This document shows positions 1,074-56,038 of a stretch of DNA of 64,000 nt, in pieces. Origin of the DNA: an uncultured Dehalococcoidia bacterium (GTDB lineage: Bacteria; Chloroflexota; Dehalococcoidia; Lucifugimonadales; UBA3495). The position numbers were made by a program, and so were the translations under genes. The DNA is taken from positions 75,029 through 139,028 of the forward strand of contig OX638345.1 of assembly GCA_951813535.1 (NCBI GenBank). Direction: 5' to 3'. Numbering within the stretch: position 1 is the stretch's first letter; every line of letters starts with the position of its first letter. Below the pieces are notes generated by a model that saw nothing but the letters and a program-made list of their open reading frames with translations, searched no databases and was not told the origin of the DNA.

Positions 1074-2264
1074 CTATCCCCGGCGGATTATCACCGCCCC
1101 GCTGAGCTGGGCCACGCTGCTGCAGGAGAGTACCCGGTTGATGGCCTTTTGGGGCGGCTGCGCGGTCGAGTCGCCCCGGATCAGCCGCACCGCCTCCTGC
1201 ACGTGGGTCAGGCCGTGGATGTACGCCTCGGAGTGGTTGCCCCCGTGGGTGTTGACCGGCAGCATCCCATCGAACCGAATGTTGGCGCCACCATCGACAA
1301 AATCCTTGGCCTCGCCCCGGGGCACGAAGCCGTAAGTTTCCAGGTTGATCAGGCAGAAAGGGGTGAAGTGGTCGTAGAACATCATCGCGTCCATATCCGA
1401 CGCGCTGAGGCGGGCGCGGGCCCACAGGTCACGGGCGGTGTGCTCCGACTCCGCCGCGGCCAGGTCGGGGCGGTAGACGATGCCGTCGTTGCGCGGGCCG
1501 GACCCCTGGGCCGCCGCCTCCACCAGGGTCAGAGTGTCGGAGTGGCGCAGCTCCCGGGCGCGCTCCGGCGTGGTCATCACCACGGCGGCCGCCCCGTCGT
1601 TCTCCTGGCAGAAGTCCAGGACGTGCAGCGGGTCCACCACCATGCGGGAGTTCTGGTGGTCGTCGATGGTGATCGGCTCCCGGCGCAGGGCGCGTGGGTT
1701 CCGGGAAGCGTGCTCGCGCAGGGTCACCGCAACCCAGCCGAAGTGCCGGGAGGTGGCGCCGTATTCGTGCATGTAGCGCCGCACGAACATGCCGAACCGG
1801 TGCGCCGGCGCCATGCTGCCCCACGGAACTGCAAAGCTATCGGCTCCGCCGGCGATGCGCTCCGGCCCCCGGGCCCGACCCAGGCGCACGCCGGACCGCA
1901 GGTTGGCGGCGCGGAAGCACACCACGTAGTTGGCGTATCCGGCGGCGATGGCCGCGGCAGCGTGTCCAACCGTGGCGTTACCCGCCCCGCCCCCGTAGGA
2001 GACCGACTCCCAGTGCCGCAGGTTCTTGATGCCCAGGGACTGCGTCAGCAGGGTCTCGTGGTTCGACTCCATGTCGTAGCGGATCAGGCCGTCGATGTCC
2101 TGCGGTGCGATGCCAGCGTCGTCGCACGCGGCCTTGATCGCTTCCGAGGCCAGCTGCAACTCGCTGCGGCCTGAATCCCATGAGAACTCCGTTTCGCCGA
2201 TGCCGACGATGGCGGCCTTGTCCCGTATGCCGTTGGTGTCGGCGGGGATGATGTTCGGCGGCAT
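1074..2264 (-). CDS. SCP2-type thiolase-like protein (non-decarboxylating lipid-transfer/retro-aldolase family)
   Basis: 396 residues of the thiolase fold: N-terminal AAIVGIGETEFSWDSGRS, a central SYGGGAGNATVGHAAAAIA segment, and a C-terminal NTHGGNHSEAYIHG box carrying the conserved His. At the position where classical thiolases have the nucleophilic Cys I see no clear cysteine. This suits the Ltp/SCPx branch acting as a retro-aldolase or acyl-binding protein rather than a true acetyl-CoA acetyltransferase. GGAGGAA precedes the ATG. It starts 6 bp after the stop of the double CoA-transferase and is followed 11 bp later by its DUF35 partner. The operon suggests CoA-activated breakdown of a branched or cyclic acid. 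Confidence 0.85.
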   Translation of the reverse strand: MPPNIIPADTNGIRDKAAIVGIGETEFSWDSGRSELQLASEAIKAACDDAGIAPQDIDGLIRYDMESNHETLLTQSLGIKNLRHWESVSYGGGAGNATVGHAAAAIAAGYANYVVCFRAANLRSGVRLGRARGPERIAGGADSFAVPWGSMAPAHRFGMFVRRYMHEYGATSRHFGWVAVTLREHASRNPRALRREPITIDDHQNSRMVVDPLHVLDFCQENDGAAAVVMTTPERARELRHSDTLTLVEAAAQGSGPRNDGIVYRPDLAAAESEHTARDLWARARLSASDMDAMMFYDHFTPFCLINLETYGFVPRGEAKDFVDGGANIRFDGMLPVNTHGGNHSEAYIHGLTHVQEAVRLIRGDSTAQPPQKAINRVLSCSSVAQLSGAVIIRRG

Positions 2265-2270
2265 AGCCGT

Positions 2271-4697
2271 CTATTCCTCCTCCCAGTCCACCACTTTCCG
2301 CTGTTTGAAGTCGTGGATCTGCTCGTCGGTGTACCCCAACTCCCGCAGGATGAGGCGGGTGTGCTGGCCCTTCAGCGGCCCCGGCCCGGCCTTGCCCGGG
2401 GTCTCCGAGAAATCCACCACGGGGGAGTACCGCCAGAACTCGCCGTAGCGCGGCGCATCCACCTGGGTGAGCATCCCGTTCTCCCGCACGTGGGGGTCTT
2501 CATCGAAGAAGAAATACATCCCCCGGTCTTCGGCCTTGACGCAGGCCACATCGGCGGCGGTCAGCAGCCGCTCCCAGTGCATCGGTTCTTCGGTGGCGAA
2601 CACCCGTCCCAGCTCATCGGCCAGCGCGTCGTCGTGTTCCTCCCGTGCCTCGGGAGTCGCATAGCGCGGATCAGACAACAGGTCGGTCCGGTCGATGGTG
2701 CGGCAAAGCGTCTCCCACTCTTCATCAAATGGGCAGGCCAGGAACACCCAGCCCGTCTTGGCCCGGTACAGGCGGTACAGGGCGTGCAGCCCGTATCCGT
2801 CGCCGTCCGGCAGCGGGCGCGGCTGCTTGCCCTCGTGCCAGTAGAAGTCGTCGATGTTGGCGTAGGCGTTGGCCGCGATCATCGTGGACTCGACGTATTG
2901 CGCCTTGCCGGTGCGCTCCCGGGCGTAGAGGCCCAGCAGCAGGCCCACCGCGTTGACCATGCCCGTGCTGTGGTCGGCGGTGCCGTCGTTGGCCCGCTTG
3001 AGCCGTTTGGATACGGCCGCAATATCGTCGATGGACATGGCCTGATCCGCCGGCGGGAAAGCATCCCTTCCCATCTGCGCCACGCCGCCGCCGGATACCG
3101 CGCCGGCGATGGGAGCCATGGACGGCCGGTGCGAGTAGGACCCGGTGGAGCCGTACCCGCCGGCGTAGAGGTACACCAGGTTGGGGTTGATCTTCGCCAA
3201 CTGCTCGTAGCCGATGCCCGTTCGTTCCGGCGCTCCGGGGCGCATGCTGTGGAGCAGCAGGTCGGCCCTGGCCGCCAGCTTTCCCATGATCTCCTGGCCC
3301 TCCGGCGTCTTGAGATCCACGCAGATGTCCTCGGAACCGGCCATGGTGCGGTGCACCGACATCGGCATGCCCTGCCGGCCCCAGTCGCCACCGGGCGCCT
3401 CGATGCGGATCACCCGCGCGCCCAGCTCGGCCACCAACGCGCATCCCAGCGGGCCGTTGATTACCGTTCCCAGGTCCAGCAGGGTGATGCCTTCCAGGGC
3501 ATGTTTCGGCATTGGCGCTTTTGTGCCATTAGAACGACTCTCAACGTCGCTTCCCAATCGCGCCAGCGCCTCCACCGTGTGCTGTCCCAACGCTGGAGCC
3601 GGCCCCTGAGTGCGCCCAGGCGTCCCGCTCATGTTCACCATAGGACCGAGCTGCCGCGTCGCGCCCACGCCCGGGGCCCGCAGGTCCTGCACATTGCCGT
3701 TGTGCACAATCTGGGGATGGTCCAGGGCCCGCTCGGAGGCGTAGTAAGGCTCGGCGGCCACGTTGCCGGCCTCGCCGAGGAATATGTCCATCCACTCGGC
3801 CAGCGTCTTCTCCTGGACCTTCTCCAGCATGATCCGTTCCAGCGACGCGACGGCCTCTTGATCCAGGAAGGGGGCGTTCTTGAACCTGGGGTCCTCGTAA
3901 ATGAAGTCCATATCCAGCCAGTGCATCATGGACCGGAACAGACGCTCCACCACGTTTCCCAGCTGAATCCACTGGCCGTCTTTGGTGCGGGCGGGCAGGT
4001 AGCCCGTGGGGTTGGGACGGCCGATGCCCACCCTCGGGTCCGGCGGATAGGTATCGGGCAGGTTCTCGATCATCTGGCCGTACACCCACGAAACGTGGTC
4101 GTAGGTGGTGACGGCCTTAAGTAGACTGGTCTCCACCCGCTGGCCCAGGCCGGTCTTTTCCCGCACATACAGGGCGGACGTGATGCCGCGGATCAGCGCC
4201 GTGGCGGCAGAGTGGCAGACGCCCTGCACGACCACGTAGTTGGGGCCTTCCCTCGGATTCTGCTCGGCGAACATCATCATCCGCCCGCTCTTGGCGGCCA
4301 CCACCCCGTCGTAGCCCTTGTAGTGGGCGTAGGGCCCGTCGGATCCGAACCCGGTCAGCGTGGCATAGACTAGGCCGGGATGGCCGTCCCGCAGGCTGTC
4401 GTAGTCGATTCCCAGCCGCTCGGCGACGCCCGGTCGGAAATTCTCGACCACCACGTCGGAGAGTTGCGCCAACTCCCGGGCGTTGTCTCTGCCTTCCGCA
4501 GTCTTCAGGTTCAGGACGACGCTCTTCTTGCCGCGATTCCACTGGATGGAGCCCGGTGAGTTCCGGAACTTTTCGCCGTCCGGCGGTTCCACTTTGATCA
4601 CCTCGGCCCCGAAGTCCGACAGCACCATGGTGGCAACGCCGCCCGCTCGGCCGCTGGTGAAATCCAGGACGGTGATCCCATCAAAGACCTGCGCCAT
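2271..4697 (-). CDS. Fused tandem CaiB/BaiF family III CoA-transferase
   Basis: 808 residues containing two complete CaiB/BaiF-type units in one chain. Unit 1 begins at FDGITVLDFTSGRAGGVATM and includes GAEVIKVEPP and NRGKKSVVLNLKT. Unit 2 begins near residue 398 at MPKHALEGITLLDLGTVING and includes GARVIRIEAPGG and ICVDLKTPEG. Single-domain members are about 400 residues and act as dimers, so this is a covalent pseudo-dimer whose halves have diverged. The family moves CoA between carboxylic acids. I chose ATG 4697 rather than GTG 4700 because the G-rich ribosome site is too close to the GTG. It is the first gene of the operon with the thiolase and DUF35 genes, so it probably activates their substrate. 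Confidence 0.9.
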   Translation of the reverse strand: MAQVFDGITVLDFTSGRAGGVATMVLSDFGAEVIKVEPPDGEKFRNSPGSIQWNRGKKSVVLNLKTAEGRDNARELAQLSDVVVENFRPGVAERLGIDYDSLRDGHPGLVYATLTGFGSDGPYAHYKGYDGVVAAKSGRMMMFAEQNPREGPNYVVVQGVCHSAATALIRGITSALYVREKTGLGQRVETSLLKAVTTYDHVSWVYGQMIENLPDTYPPDPRVGIGRPNPTGYLPARTKDGQWIQLGNVVERLFRSMMHWLDMDFIYEDPRFKNAPFLDQEAVASLERIMLEKVQEKTLAEWMDIFLGEAGNVAAEPYYASERALDHPQIVHNGNVQDLRAPGVGATRQLGPMVNMSGTPGRTQGPAPALGQHTVEALARLGSDVESRSNGTKAPMPKHALEGITLLDLGTVINGPLGCALVAELGARVIRIEAPGGDWGRQGMPMSVHRTMAGSEDICVDLKTPEGQEIMGKLAARADLLLHSMRPGAPERTGIGYEQLAKINPNLVYLYAGGYGSTGSYSHRPSMAPIAGAVSGGGVAQMGRDAFPPADQAMSIDDIAAVSKRLKRANDGTADHSTGMVNAVGLLLGLYARERTGKAQYVESTMIAANAYANIDDFYWHEGKQPRPLPDGDGYGLHALYRLYRAKTGWVFLACPFDEEWETLCRTIDRTDLLSDPRYATPEAREEHDDALADELGRVFATEEPMHWERLLTAADVACVKAEDRGMYFFFDEDPHVRENGMLTQVDAPRYGEFWRYSPVVDFSETPGKAGPGPLKGQHTRLILRELGYTDEQIHDFKQRKVVDWEEE

Positions 4698-52731: not shown

Positions 52732-52849
52732 TGCTTGTCTCCAACAATTCCTTTTCGGGCAACGTCATTATAGAACAGGATTTGCGGGCGGCTGCGGATC
52801 GCCCCGGTTACCAGCAGGATAGCCGCTAATACTCCTGACCTGCCCCAGA

Positions 52850-53106
52850 GGTTTTACCACTTTCCACGTCCCTCCGGCCAGTTCCGGAGCAGTATCCTCG
52901 GGCCGGATGGTCTCCGGCGCGGGTGGCCGATAGCCCAGGGAACTGTGCGGCCTGACGCGCTTGAGAATGTGATTGTCCAGGGTGAGTTTGGCCACCGCAC
53001 GCCTGAGCCGGCTGTTCTCGGTCTCCAACTGCTTGAGGCGCCGGGCCTGGTCCAGCCGAAGATCGCCGCACTCGGCCCGGCAGCGGTGGAAGGCCTGCTC
53101 CGAGAC
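52850..53106 (-). pseudogene. IS3-family relic: orfA end fused to orfB end by internal deletion
   Basis: One open frame reads VSEQAFHRCRAECGDLRLDQ and LKQLETENSRLRRAVAKLT (OrfA) and passes directly into RVRPHSSLGYRPPAPETI (the conserved end of IS3 OrfB). The whole catalytic DDE core between them is missing. The segment abuts the 3' end of the amidohydrolase gene at 53246. Confidence 0.85.
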
Positions 53107-53245
53107 CCAAATGGGCCGCTTGGCCTCAGCCGCGTTAAACCGATACGGATGGTATGGATTCTCCCTCGGCCCAAGGCTGCAAAACTGCCGACAACGGCAG
53201 GCAGCACCATTCCAGGGGTGTCGAGCCATTGCCCCGGGTGTTCGG

Positions 53246-54403
53246 CTACGGCTCTCCGAAACACGCCACCGCATTGTCCCACATGATTCGCTGCAAGAGA
53301 TCCTGGTCCAACGCTTCCCAGCCCATCACCAGATCCACCGAGCCGGGGAACCGGGTCTCCGGGTGGGGATAATCGGAGCTGTACATGAGAAGTTGTTTGC
53401 CCATCAGGTCGGACACCATCTTCACCATCTCCGGCCCCTCGTGGAGCACGATGGAGGCGAAAAATCGGCCGCTGGACATATACTCGGCCATGGTGTGTTT
53501 CAACTCCGCCACGTAGCCCATGTATTCCACCTGATCCTGCATCCGGGCGGCCCAGAAAGGCAACCAGCCGAAGCCCGACTCCAGGATGGAGAAGCGTATG
53601 CTGGGATATTGGTCCATCAGGCCCGCTCCCAGGAACGACGCCACCGCGCGCATTGCCCCCCAGGGATGGGATGCCGTGCGGCCCATGAATGGGTTTTGCC
53701 ACAGGTCGCGGTAGCCAGGGTAGCCTCCGGAGAAGGAATGGTGCACGACGCACAGACCTTCGTCTTCCACCGCGCGCCAGACGGGATGCAGCGAAGGGTG
53801 GTCCAGGGGAAAGTCCAAGGGAAGGTTGAGCCAGATGCCCGCCGTCCAGGCGCTTTCGCCCCAGGTCCTGATCTCCTGCGCGGATTCTTCGATGAAACGG
53901 GCATCCAGGGTCAGCAGGGCCTTGAGGCGGTGGGGAGCCGTGCCGCAGAAGTCGTTAAGGAACCGGTGGTTGGCCCGGATAAACTCCAGGTCCACAGATG
54001 GGTCCTGATGCCCCCGGGGCACGCCCGGAACCATGAGCTGCACATCCACTCCCTCTTCGTCCATATCCCGCAGGCGGCTTTCGGCAACCCATTCGCCGTC
54101 GGCGGCGGGCAGTTTGGCGCCCATAAACTTCTGGGGACGCCGTTCCGCGTCGCGGTCCGGCTCCGCCTGTCCCAGAGTCCGCGGCGCGTCCGAACCCCAG
54201 CCGCCGCCCGAGCTGCCCAGGCTGAACCGGTGGGCATAGGGAGATTCCAGGGTGGCGCCCGCAGAGGTCCGGCGGATGGGCGTCTTGTACTGATCCAGGT
54301 CGGGAAGCTTTTCCCTGACCGATGCAGCCAGGTAGAGGTCCAGTCCCTCCGCCGTGGCAGTCACGTGAGTATCGGAATCGTAAACTTTGATGCCGTTTCT
54401 CAT
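53246..54403 (-). CDS. Amidohydrolase_2 (ACMSD-like) family protein
   Basis: 385 residues. KVYDSDTHVTATAEGLDLYL near the N-terminus (D-x-D-x-H variant of the HxH metal motif), VDVQLMVPGVPRGHQDPSVD, LCVVHHSFSGG (His), FSILESGFGWLPFWAARMQD and LLMYSSDYPHPETRFPGS with the catalytic Asp. Such enzymes decarboxylate or hydrolyse carboxylic acids of cyclic compounds. GGAGGAAG precedes the ATG. It is 96 bp downstream of the linalool-dehydratase-like gene on the same strand and probably in its operon; the IS3 relic lies right after its stop. Confidence 0.85.
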   Translation of the reverse strand: MRNGIKVYDSDTHVTATAEGLDLYLAASVREKLPDLDQYKTPIRRTSAGATLESPYAHRFSLGSSGGGWGSDAPRTLGQAEPDRDAERRPQKFMGAKLPAADGEWVAESRLRDMDEEGVDVQLMVPGVPRGHQDPSVDLEFIRANHRFLNDFCGTAPHRLKALLTLDARFIEESAQEIRTWGESAWTAGIWLNLPLDFPLDHPSLHPVWRAVEDEGLCVVHHSFSGGYPGYRDLWQNPFMGRTASHPWGAMRAVASFLGAGLMDQYPSIRFSILESGFGWLPFWAARMQDQVEYMGYVAELKHTMAEYMSSGRFFASIVLHEGPEMVKMVSDLMGKQLLMYSSDYPHPETRFPGSVDLVMGWEALDQDLLQRIMWDNAVACFGEP

Positions 54404-54499: not shown

Positions 54500-56038
54500 T
54501 CACCACTGCTGGCTGATCACGAACGTGTGCTCACCGACGGTAGTTGTGATCTCCAGTTCATCGCCGACGATGCGCCAGTCCTGGGAGGGCTGGCCGTCCA
54601 TCACGACCCGGCATCTCTGGGCATCCACGTTGTTGACCCTGAACGAGGTCGGTTGTCCGACGGCGCCGGGCCGGCCGGCGTCCGTGGACACCAGCAGGGA
54701 GCGGCGGTCGACGTCGTAGTACGCCTGCGAGAGGCAGACGGTGGGGAAATCCACGGCGTACACCGTGGGCTCGATGAATTTGCGCAGGTTGGGCGCGTCG
54801 TAGATGCGCGCCATCGCACCCGGAGAGCAGGCTTCGGCGGTCGCAATGTGCCCGTTGTACTGGCCCCTGGGATGGGGCTCGTCCAGCCCGAATCCCCAGG
54901 TGAATTCACCAGAGGCGGCGTCCCAGGTCGGCTCATAGTTTTCTTCGGCGTGGGCCATCAGCTTGGCGTAGATGGCGTCCTCTCCAAACTCCTTCGCCAG
55001 CGCCAACCCACGCACCGTGGTCGTCGGTGTGGGCTCTCCAGTTGCATAGTCTATCGATCCCTCTCGGACCGGCTGCAGAGTTCTCCATCCCAGGGCGTCG
55101 GCAGCGCCGTTGAAAAGCATCCGGGACTCCTCGTTCTTCTGGCCAAGCAGTTCTCTGGCCAAGCCCAGATGCCCGGCGGCCCGCGTTGGAACATGGAGGT
55201 CAATCAGAGGGTCGTAGAATCGCGTGGACGTGTCCCGGGACGTGCCCGTGATGCGCCCCAGCCCGTAAAGTTCCTTGGCCGTCTCCCACCAGTTGTTGAA
55301 GACCCGATGGTGGTCGCTGCCGTAGAGGATGTCGTGTAGCCTCAGACCGAGGCCCGCTCCGGCCAATCAATTTGGCCAGACCTTGGTGTTCTCTCAATGG
55401 CACCCCTCAGCCCTGGCGGACCATTGTCTCGCCAGGTGTTCGGCGGTTTCGGAATGGGTCCAGGTGAAGGTGTTTTCGCCGTCGCGTACGATTTCGAAAG
55501 GTTGGTTCCACTTGTGGTCGCCGGTCACATACACGTAGTAACCGAGCAGTTGCAAGAACCATCCCTTGAAGAAGAGATTGCCGTCGGCGCCGATGGGGTC
55601 CATCTGCAGGCCCCAGGGTTCAACGCCGTTGGCCGTCCAGCCGATGACGTCGTAGCTGCCCCTGAGGTGCCTGGGGATCAGGTTCCGGTACCATCCCTCG
55701 GGGTAATTTTCCCGCCGGGGGTCGGGGCCAATCTGGTCAAGCCAGTCCTTGGCGGCCCAGTATCCGGTGTGCCTGAAGGCGAGTTCGTCCAGCACCCTGC
55801 CGTAGACCTCGCGCCAGGCGGGAGTGGTGTCTGCCATCAGCACCATGGCGTACATTGAGGCCCACAGGTCGAACCGGTGCCACGAAGCCGGGGGCTCGCC
55901 GGAAACATTATCCCAATGCGGATGGGGTTCGCCGTCCTTGTCCCAGTTGTCCTCGGTGGTGGCCTTGCGATACATGTACCTCAGCCAACCCCGGCTGCGG
56001 TCCGAGGTCGCCGGATACCCCAATACGGTTACAGCCAT
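54500..56038 (-). CDS. Linalool dehydratase/isomerase-like enzyme with two in-frame TGA codons (predicted di-selenoprotein)
   Basis: 513 codons from ATG 56038 (AAAGGAG upstream) with TGA at codons 215 (55394-55396) and 224 (55367-55369). Both halves read in one frame, before and after. Around them the protein reads EGCH-U-ENTKVWPN-U-LAGAGLGLRLHDILYG. The Ldi family carries a C-E-x5-(F/W)-x2-C pattern here, whose two Cys (C171 and C180 in Castellaniella Ldi, nine apart) are catalytic. The substitution of exactly both by TGA indicates selenocysteine. A GCCTC-GGTCT-GAGGC hairpin follows the second TGA (55339-55353). The N-terminal helices (WHRFDLWASMYAMVLMAD) and the downstream half fit the alpha/alpha barrel. 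Ldi hydrates or dehydrates allylic alcohols; the substrate here is unknown. The alternative is a pseudogene with two coincidental nonsense mutations. Confidence 0.78.
55339..55353 (-). promoter_or_regulatory. Candidate bacterial SECIS hairpin
   Basis: Read on the minus strand, 13 nt after the TGA at 55367-55369: GCCTC, loop GGTCT, GAGGC (5-bp stem). As I recall the E. coli fdhF SECIS, its apical loop is also GGUCU, at the same 18 nt from the UGA. A second GGTCT occurs 11 nt after the first TGA (55378-55382) with only a 3-bp CCA/TGG stem around it. Confidence 0.6.

Follow-up and report, generated by a model that had tools for sequence, protein, structure and literature searches.

A gene of an uncultured Dehalococcoidia bacterium seems to represent a new selenoprotein family, in which selenocysteine (Sec) occupies one or both of the places held by the catalytic cysteines of linalool dehydratase/isomerase (Ldi). 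The gene, designated here as Sec-Ldi, lies within the 64,000-nucleotide stretch of DNA that was analyzed (the window) and contains two in-frame UGA codons, each followed by a hairpin. We consider it highly likely that the Sec-Ldi hairpin, that following the second UGA, is the SECIS of a bacterial selenoprotein family not catalogued previously. Direct data on Sec insertion, expression or activity are lacking; the insertion of Sec and the reaction catalyzed by Sec-Ldi are both inferred.

The gene, its UGA codons and its relatives

With TGA read as Sec, translation of the gene yields a single open frame of 512 residues that includes U215 and U224 (Table 1). The protein matches the Pfam family PF18566 (Ldi, linalool dehydratase/isomerase) with an E-value of 2e-13 and 51 bits, relative to a gathering cut-off of 26.1. 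When a profile of 12 family members was compared with the solved Ldi chains (E 2e-9), Cys was aligned at both UGA positions. Counted from residue 112 of the 5hlr chain in the printed alignment, these residues are C170 and C179.

Table 1. Positions in the window of Sec-Ldi, its UGA codons and hairpins, and the downstream gene
Feature	Position	Strand	Description
Sec-Ldi gene	54500..56038	minus	ATG 56038-56036, 512 codons, stop TGA 54502-54500
First UGA, codon 215	55394..55396	minus	at Ldi C170 (profile alignment to 5hlr/7ad2)
Second UGA, codon 224	55367..55369	minus	at Ldi C179 (profile alignment)
Hairpin 1, candidate SECIS for the first UGA	55358..55380	minus	9-bp stem, loop ATTGA 55371-55367
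Hairpin 2, very probably the SECIS for the second UGA	55338..55354	minus	6-bp stem, GGUCU loop 55348-55344
Amidohydro_2 gene (PF04909)	53249..54403	minus	downstream, same direction as Sec-Ldi; Pfam E 4.3e-16

A search of genome contigs revealed 11 relatives with 54-68% identity, whose records are assigned to Dehalococcoidia/Chloroflexi, Alphaproteobacteria, Gammaproteobacteria and Candidatus Entotheonella; further relatives were obtained by genome searches. Among 30 distinct sequences, the pair of sites is UGA/UGA in seven, Cys/UGA in 14 and Cys/Cys in nine. The UGA/UGA and Cys/UGA forms occur in relatives from Chloroflexota, Pseudomonadota and Entotheonella, the Cys/Cys form in more distant ones. 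At the site of codon 215, UGA is present in 7 and TGC or TGT in 14 of the 21 distinct UGA-bearing sequences; at the site of codon 224, the corresponding numbers are 21 and 9 of all 30. Neither TAA nor TAG was found at either site in the 30 sequences. The criterion for a selenoprotein, in-frame UGAs aligned with Cys of homologues, is thus met at both sites.

These counts refer to 30 distinct stretches of 122 nt, from which repeats (for example L028, identical to L027, and L018, identical to L020), the distant Ldi matches L042 and L043 (C..C and C..G) and the partial matches L061, L064, L067 and L068 were omitted. Copies that are broken or split in frame (L021_999, L066, L072 and L073) were counted but not included in the tree. 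In the tree of 27 rows, all 20 Sec rows form one clade (99/99). The UGA/UGA state requires two changes on this tree, and a single origin is not excluded. Because the sequences are related, and the label changes only three times on the tree, the counts of UGAs and hairpins given here and below do not represent independent events. The distribution of the gene is patchy: it was found in two further genomes among 98 relatives and in none of 13 genomes of the same genus. A scan of viral contigs yielded 38 stretches that fit a pattern, of which none was confirmed as a relative.

Several genomes contain more than one copy. Three alphaproteobacterial genomes (G495, G496, G497) each encode three to four Sec-Ldi paralogues, and on L021 two paralogues (1-1405 and 1853-3358) are arranged head to head; one of these, close to the end of the contig, is split in frame. 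The Entotheonella genome G498 carries an intact Cys/UGA copy and, in addition, a second, UGA/UGA copy in three frame pieces (L066-L068) that is apparently decaying. The Ldi-like Cys/Cys genes of G1072 (L072-L075) are more distant and are split in frame or over several pieces; in one of them a stop is located at query position 393, away from the active site.

Predicted Ldi-like fold and the possible role of the Sec pair

Both C170 and C179 are essential in Ldi, as their replacement by Ala or Ser inactivates the enzyme (PMC6600392). The catalytic Cys-pair criterion of Ldi is met by the Sec-Ldi family, in which the two positions are filled by Sec or Cys. An AlphaFold model, built from the 12-row alignment with Cys substituted for Sec, attained a pLDDT of 76.9 and a pTM of 0.83. 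Its top match in the PDB is Ldi (Z 26.8, rmsd 2.9 over 325 residues), followed by the next fold at Z 16.4. According to this model, the first ~420 residues are predicted to have the fold of linalool dehydratase/isomerase.

The likeness to the Castellaniella defragrans Ldi (PF18566; 5hlr, 5g1u, 6tfn) thus consists of the (alpha/alpha)6 barrel, as judged from the predicted structure, and of the place and spacing of the two catalytic cysteines. The differences are considerable. The identity is only ~16-17%, Sec replaces Cys at one or both sites, and Sec-Ldi has an additional, beta-rich C-terminal part past about residue 424. H128, named as a key residue of Ldi (PMC12455561), has no equivalent; its place is taken by W160 in the window protein and by W, F or D across the 12 rows of the alignment. 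Nor is the capping disulfide C48-C101 of Ldi matched, as the window protein has no Cys in residues 1-212. Given the loss of H128 and the lack of the disulfide cysteines, Sec-Ldi is expected to differ from Ldi in its substrate and perhaps also in the reaction. For the same reasons the protein is called Ldi-like, and linalool is not claimed as its substrate. Ldi proper is a homopentamer that acts on linalool, myrcene or geraniol.

The gene neighborhood does not reveal the substrate, since no neighbor is conserved across lineages. This also applies to the amidohydrolase gene downstream of Sec-Ldi (Table 1), which is not conserved in other lineages. An SDR-like cluster is common to 8 of 12 loci, at varying distance, and the other neighbor clusters are common only to close relatives. 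Just downstream of the amidohydrolase gene, at ~52830-53150 on the minus strand, lie pieces that we take, from their read-through translation, to resemble an IS3-type transposase.

Ldi works by acid-base chemistry, in which a covalent adduct may be involved (PMC6600392). By analogy, the two selenols of Sec-Ldi would lie opposite one another in the active site and take over the function of the Ldi thiols. They might serve in acid-base or nucleophilic catalysis, in which a leaving group is added to, removed from or shifted along an unsaturated substrate that would differ from linalool. A redox role of an inserted Sec pair, in the form of a diselenide or selenenyl sulfide that acts, for example, in reductive elimination or dehalogenation, remains a possibility. 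The majority of known selenoproteins are regarded as redox proteins (PMC13188914), H128 of Ldi has been lost, and the Cys/UGA form retains a C-x8-U pair. Arguing against a redox center is that the reactions of Ldi require its pair to remain reduced (PMC6600392), that Sec-Ldi has no CxxU or UxxC motif and that no conserved reductase neighbor was found. The gene context does not decide between the two readings. The non-redox double-selenol site is our first choice and the redox pair our second.

The two hairpins

On the minus strand, the second TGA (55369-55367) is followed after 13 nt by GCCTC (55353-55349), GGTCT (55348-55344) and GAGGC (55343-55339), exactly where the original prediction had placed them, and the loop starts 18 nt past the UGA. 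One extra G-U pair lengthens the stem to 6 bp. The original prediction also stated that the SECIS of E. coli fdhF carries a GGUCU loop at 18 nt, which is true for the sequence of E. coli K-12 fdhF. The two elements resemble each other in the UGA-to-loop distance, the loop and the location of the hairpin in the coding region directly past the UGA. They differ in the sequence of the stem and in its length (4 bp in fdhF, as determined by a simple scan, vs. 6-7 bp in Sec-Ldi); moreover, fdhF contains a single UGA and the proteins are unrelated.

According to the bSECIS model, the apical loop comprises 3-9 nt and the upper stem 4-16 bp, the loop has G in its first two positions (mostly GG or GU), the distance from UGA to loop is 16-37 nt, and the free energy is -7.5 kcal/mol or lower (PMC13188914). 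In all 21 UGA sequences, hairpin 2 has a loop of 5 nt, a stem of 6-7 bp and a spacing of 18 nt; the loop is GGTCT in 20 and GGTTT in one. The energy criterion is met by the window sequence (-8.6 kcal/mol) and by 19 of the 21 sequences in total. The stems of L026 and L027, at -6.2 kcal/mol, fall short of the rule, and by the same count the SECIS of E. coli fdhF reaches only -2.0 kcal/mol.

Single-sequence folding was rejected as proof of a SECIS. The 36-nt piece that contains hairpin 2 folds no better than its shuffles (z -0.24), and its minimum-energy fold is a structure other than hairpin 2. In 20,000 synonymous recodings, a bSECIS-like hairpin of equal or greater stability arose in 2.2%, and one with -7.5 kcal/mol or better in 6.2%. 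Neither the shuffles nor the synonymous null is sufficient alone; considering only the window sequence, hairpin 2 is within the reach of chance. Its significance derives from the comparison with relatives.

Hairpin 2 is present at 18 nt in 21 of 21 distinct sequences with a second UGA vs. none of nine Cys/Cys sequences, in which the stem at this place amounts to 0-2 bp. UGA-containing homologues without the hairpin, which would have refuted the original prediction, were therefore not encountered, and the proposed resemblance to a bacterial SECIS is supported by this distribution together with the covariation and the fixed wobble bases. In 19 distinct stretches, 98.5% of the cells of hairpin 2 pair. 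The covariation score of 0.364 compares with 0.136 in shuffles, none of 500 of which scored as high, and the signal was lost when the partners were slid. Two control measures, the pairs changed on both sides and the number of pair types, were not above the shuffles (465/500 and 239/500), because four of the seven pairs of hairpin 2 are invariant. Of the others, the pair with the clearest variation links the third positions of two codons and is seen as C-G, G-C and U-A. Hairpin 2 is very probably a genuine Sec-insertion signal; the binding of SelB and the insertion of Sec are inferred.

Hairpin 1, which the original prediction did not include, has the sequence TCTGGCCAA / ATTGA / TTGGCCGGA and contains the second UGA in its loop. 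It begins 13 nt past the first TGA (55396-55394), as hairpin 2 does past the second TGA. A hairpin with 21-22 nt to the loop and -6.9 to -13.0 kcal/mol was identified in all seven UGA/UGA sequences vs. none of the 14 Cys/UGA sequences at a stem of at least 5 bp, where the best value was -4.4 kcal/mol (Mann-Whitney p 1.4e-4, for sequences that are not independent). A similar hairpin with -11.0 kcal/mol is found in the Cys/Cys gene L041. Among synonymous recodings of the window sequence, 0.5% were as stable as hairpin 1. The loop of hairpin 1 in the window fails the loop-G criterion, which is met by L026 and L027 (CGTGAC) and also by L066, with a shorter stem. The pairing register is unlike between the two UGA/UGA lineages.

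A second GGTCT, with a stem of 3 bp, had been noted after the first TGA. It is indeed present, but it is located at the foot of the 9-bp hairpin 1 and is not a loop. As a SECIS loop it was rejected: a 3-bp stem at a spacing of ~10 nt does not comply with the model, and the strand instead adopts the structure of hairpin 1. The accompanying suggestion, that the two Sec codons are served unequally or share one element, is weakened by the separate hairpin that follows the first UGA in all UGA/UGA sequences. It is probable that hairpin 1 serves the first Sec codon, with the reservation that in the window it breaks the usual bSECIS loop rule. It is proposed that SelB with Sec-tRNA binds the GGUCU hairpin 2 when UGA 224 occupies the A site of the ribosome. 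Hairpin 1, holding UGA 224 in its loop, would serve UGA 215 and be unwound before hairpin 2 is needed. UGA 215 would thus be read before the ribosome opens hairpin 1, and once the ribosome is at UGA 224, hairpin 2 would lie 13 nt ahead.

Hairpin 2 might instead serve both UGAs, hairpin 1 being incidental. This is rather unlikely but cannot be dismissed, given the absence of a loop G from hairpin 1 in the window, the different registers of the two UGA/UGA lineages and the fact that hairpin 2 is the sole strongly conserved element. In this case, however, the loop of hairpin 2 would have to act from a distance of 45 nt on the first UGA, beyond the 16-37 nt of the model (PMC13188914). Hairpin 1, moreover, completely separates the UGA/UGA from the Cys/UGA sequences.

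A decaying gene, or split genes in which the UGAs are ordinary stops, could be suspected from the two in-frame stops, from the weak single-sequence statistics of the hairpin and from the broken copy in the Entotheonella genome. This is very improbable, as the full-length frame is kept and UGA, never UAA or UAG, lies exactly at the two Cys positions, a pattern that holds in Chloroflexota, Pseudomonadota and Entotheonella and is accompanied by a conserved, covarying hairpin.

Conservation of hairpin 2 merely through the protein motif GLGLRL was assessed by counting wobble bases in 19 UGA and five Cys/Cys genes (excluded were L021_999, L066 and L028 on the UGA side, and L044, L071, L072 and L073 on the Cys side). 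The 19 UGA genes share 54 columns in which Gly, Ala, Val, Pro, Thr or Leu is invariant. The third base is fixed in only three of these four-fold columns, those of residues 230, 231 and 232, which form the inner stem and loop of hairpin 2; in the five Cys/Cys genes with the same residues, these third bases vary. Arg 233 is encoded by AGG or AGA in all 13 genes with Arg at this position, compared with 98 AGR codons among the 638 Arg codons of these genes. Coding constraint alone does not account for the fixed bases of hairpin 2. The motif explanation can claim that AGLGL is also present in five Cys/Cys relatives, but these have no hairpin (stem 0-2 bp), and in the UGA genes the wobble bases are fixed only at the hairpin-loop codons and covary, which leaves it with very little credibility.

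Sec machinery, known systems and implications

The genome to which the window belongs encodes a tRNA-Sec (66.4 bits, anticodon TCA) as well as SelB, SelA and SelD (scores of 354.8, 542 and 370), all above their cut-offs. Reassignment of UGA to an ordinary residue in this genome, to which the in-frame UGAs might otherwise be ascribed, hardly merits consideration, since TGA is also the terminal stop of the Sec-Ldi gene, homologues have Cys in place of the UGA-encoded residue and the full Sec machinery is present.

SelD (L035) of the same genome contains one in-frame TGA (HCAGU), followed by a strong hairpin with its loop 27 nt away, which is probably a second SECIS of this genome. Sec-Ldi and the Sec form of SelD have in common the in-frame UGA and the subsequent stable hairpin with G in the loop. 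They differ in that the loop is GGC in SelD and GGUCU in Sec-Ldi, and in that SelD belongs to a known family. SelD served as a second control; formate dehydrogenase could not, because no in-frame stop was present in its four matched stretches in this genome.

Among the other genomes searched, a tRNA-Sec above the cut-off was present in 14 of 14, and SelB exceeded its cut-off in 12 of 13. The exception for SelB is G049, which holds L019; only an end fragment with 31.2 bits was found in this MAG, which is 84% complete. Both tRNA-Sec and SelB are also present in two genomes with Cys/Cys genes, G435 and G328, so the Sec machinery is necessary for, but not diagnostic of, the UGA genes. G500 and G499 each contain two tRNA-Sec-like matches above the cut-off, with 68 bits for one and 50 or 48 bits for the other.

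A review published in 2026 catalogues 119 families and subfamilies of prokaryotic selenoproteins (PMC13188914); in the available portion of its family table, no entry for Ldi or PF18566 was found. Two nearby Sec residues also occur in the metal-binding UxxU protein NF041115 and in the UxxxxU rhodanese/DsbD fusion TsoB NF045694, which represent different families and have a shorter Sec spacing than Sec-Ldi (PMC13188914). None of five Sec-Ldi members tested matched an NCBIfam model, and a full-text search of a collection of open-access papers, which excludes subscription papers and preprints, yielded no paper that links linalool dehydratase with selenocysteine or that names PF18566.

Sec-Ldi adds a selenoprotein family that extends over at least three groups of bacteria. 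Its genes would be broken by ordinary gene callers, for which UGA is only a stop. Cys/Cys, Cys/Sec and Sec/Sec at the same catalytic positions constitute a natural series for determining what selenium buys an enzyme, and the two hairpins provide a clean case for the successive decoding of two Sec codons that are nine codons apart. To our knowledge, the Ldi fold has no redox history. The complete scheme, a non-redox two-Sec site of the Ldi type that is translated through two successive SECIS, with the second Sec codon held in the loop of the first, is put forward only tentatively. If it is correct, Sec-Ldi would be the first selenoenzyme to act on a carbon skeleton through the acid-base or nucleophilic chemistry of a selenolate pair; its pathway would be an environmental, catabolic one, whose substrates might be halogenated or terpenoid natural products.
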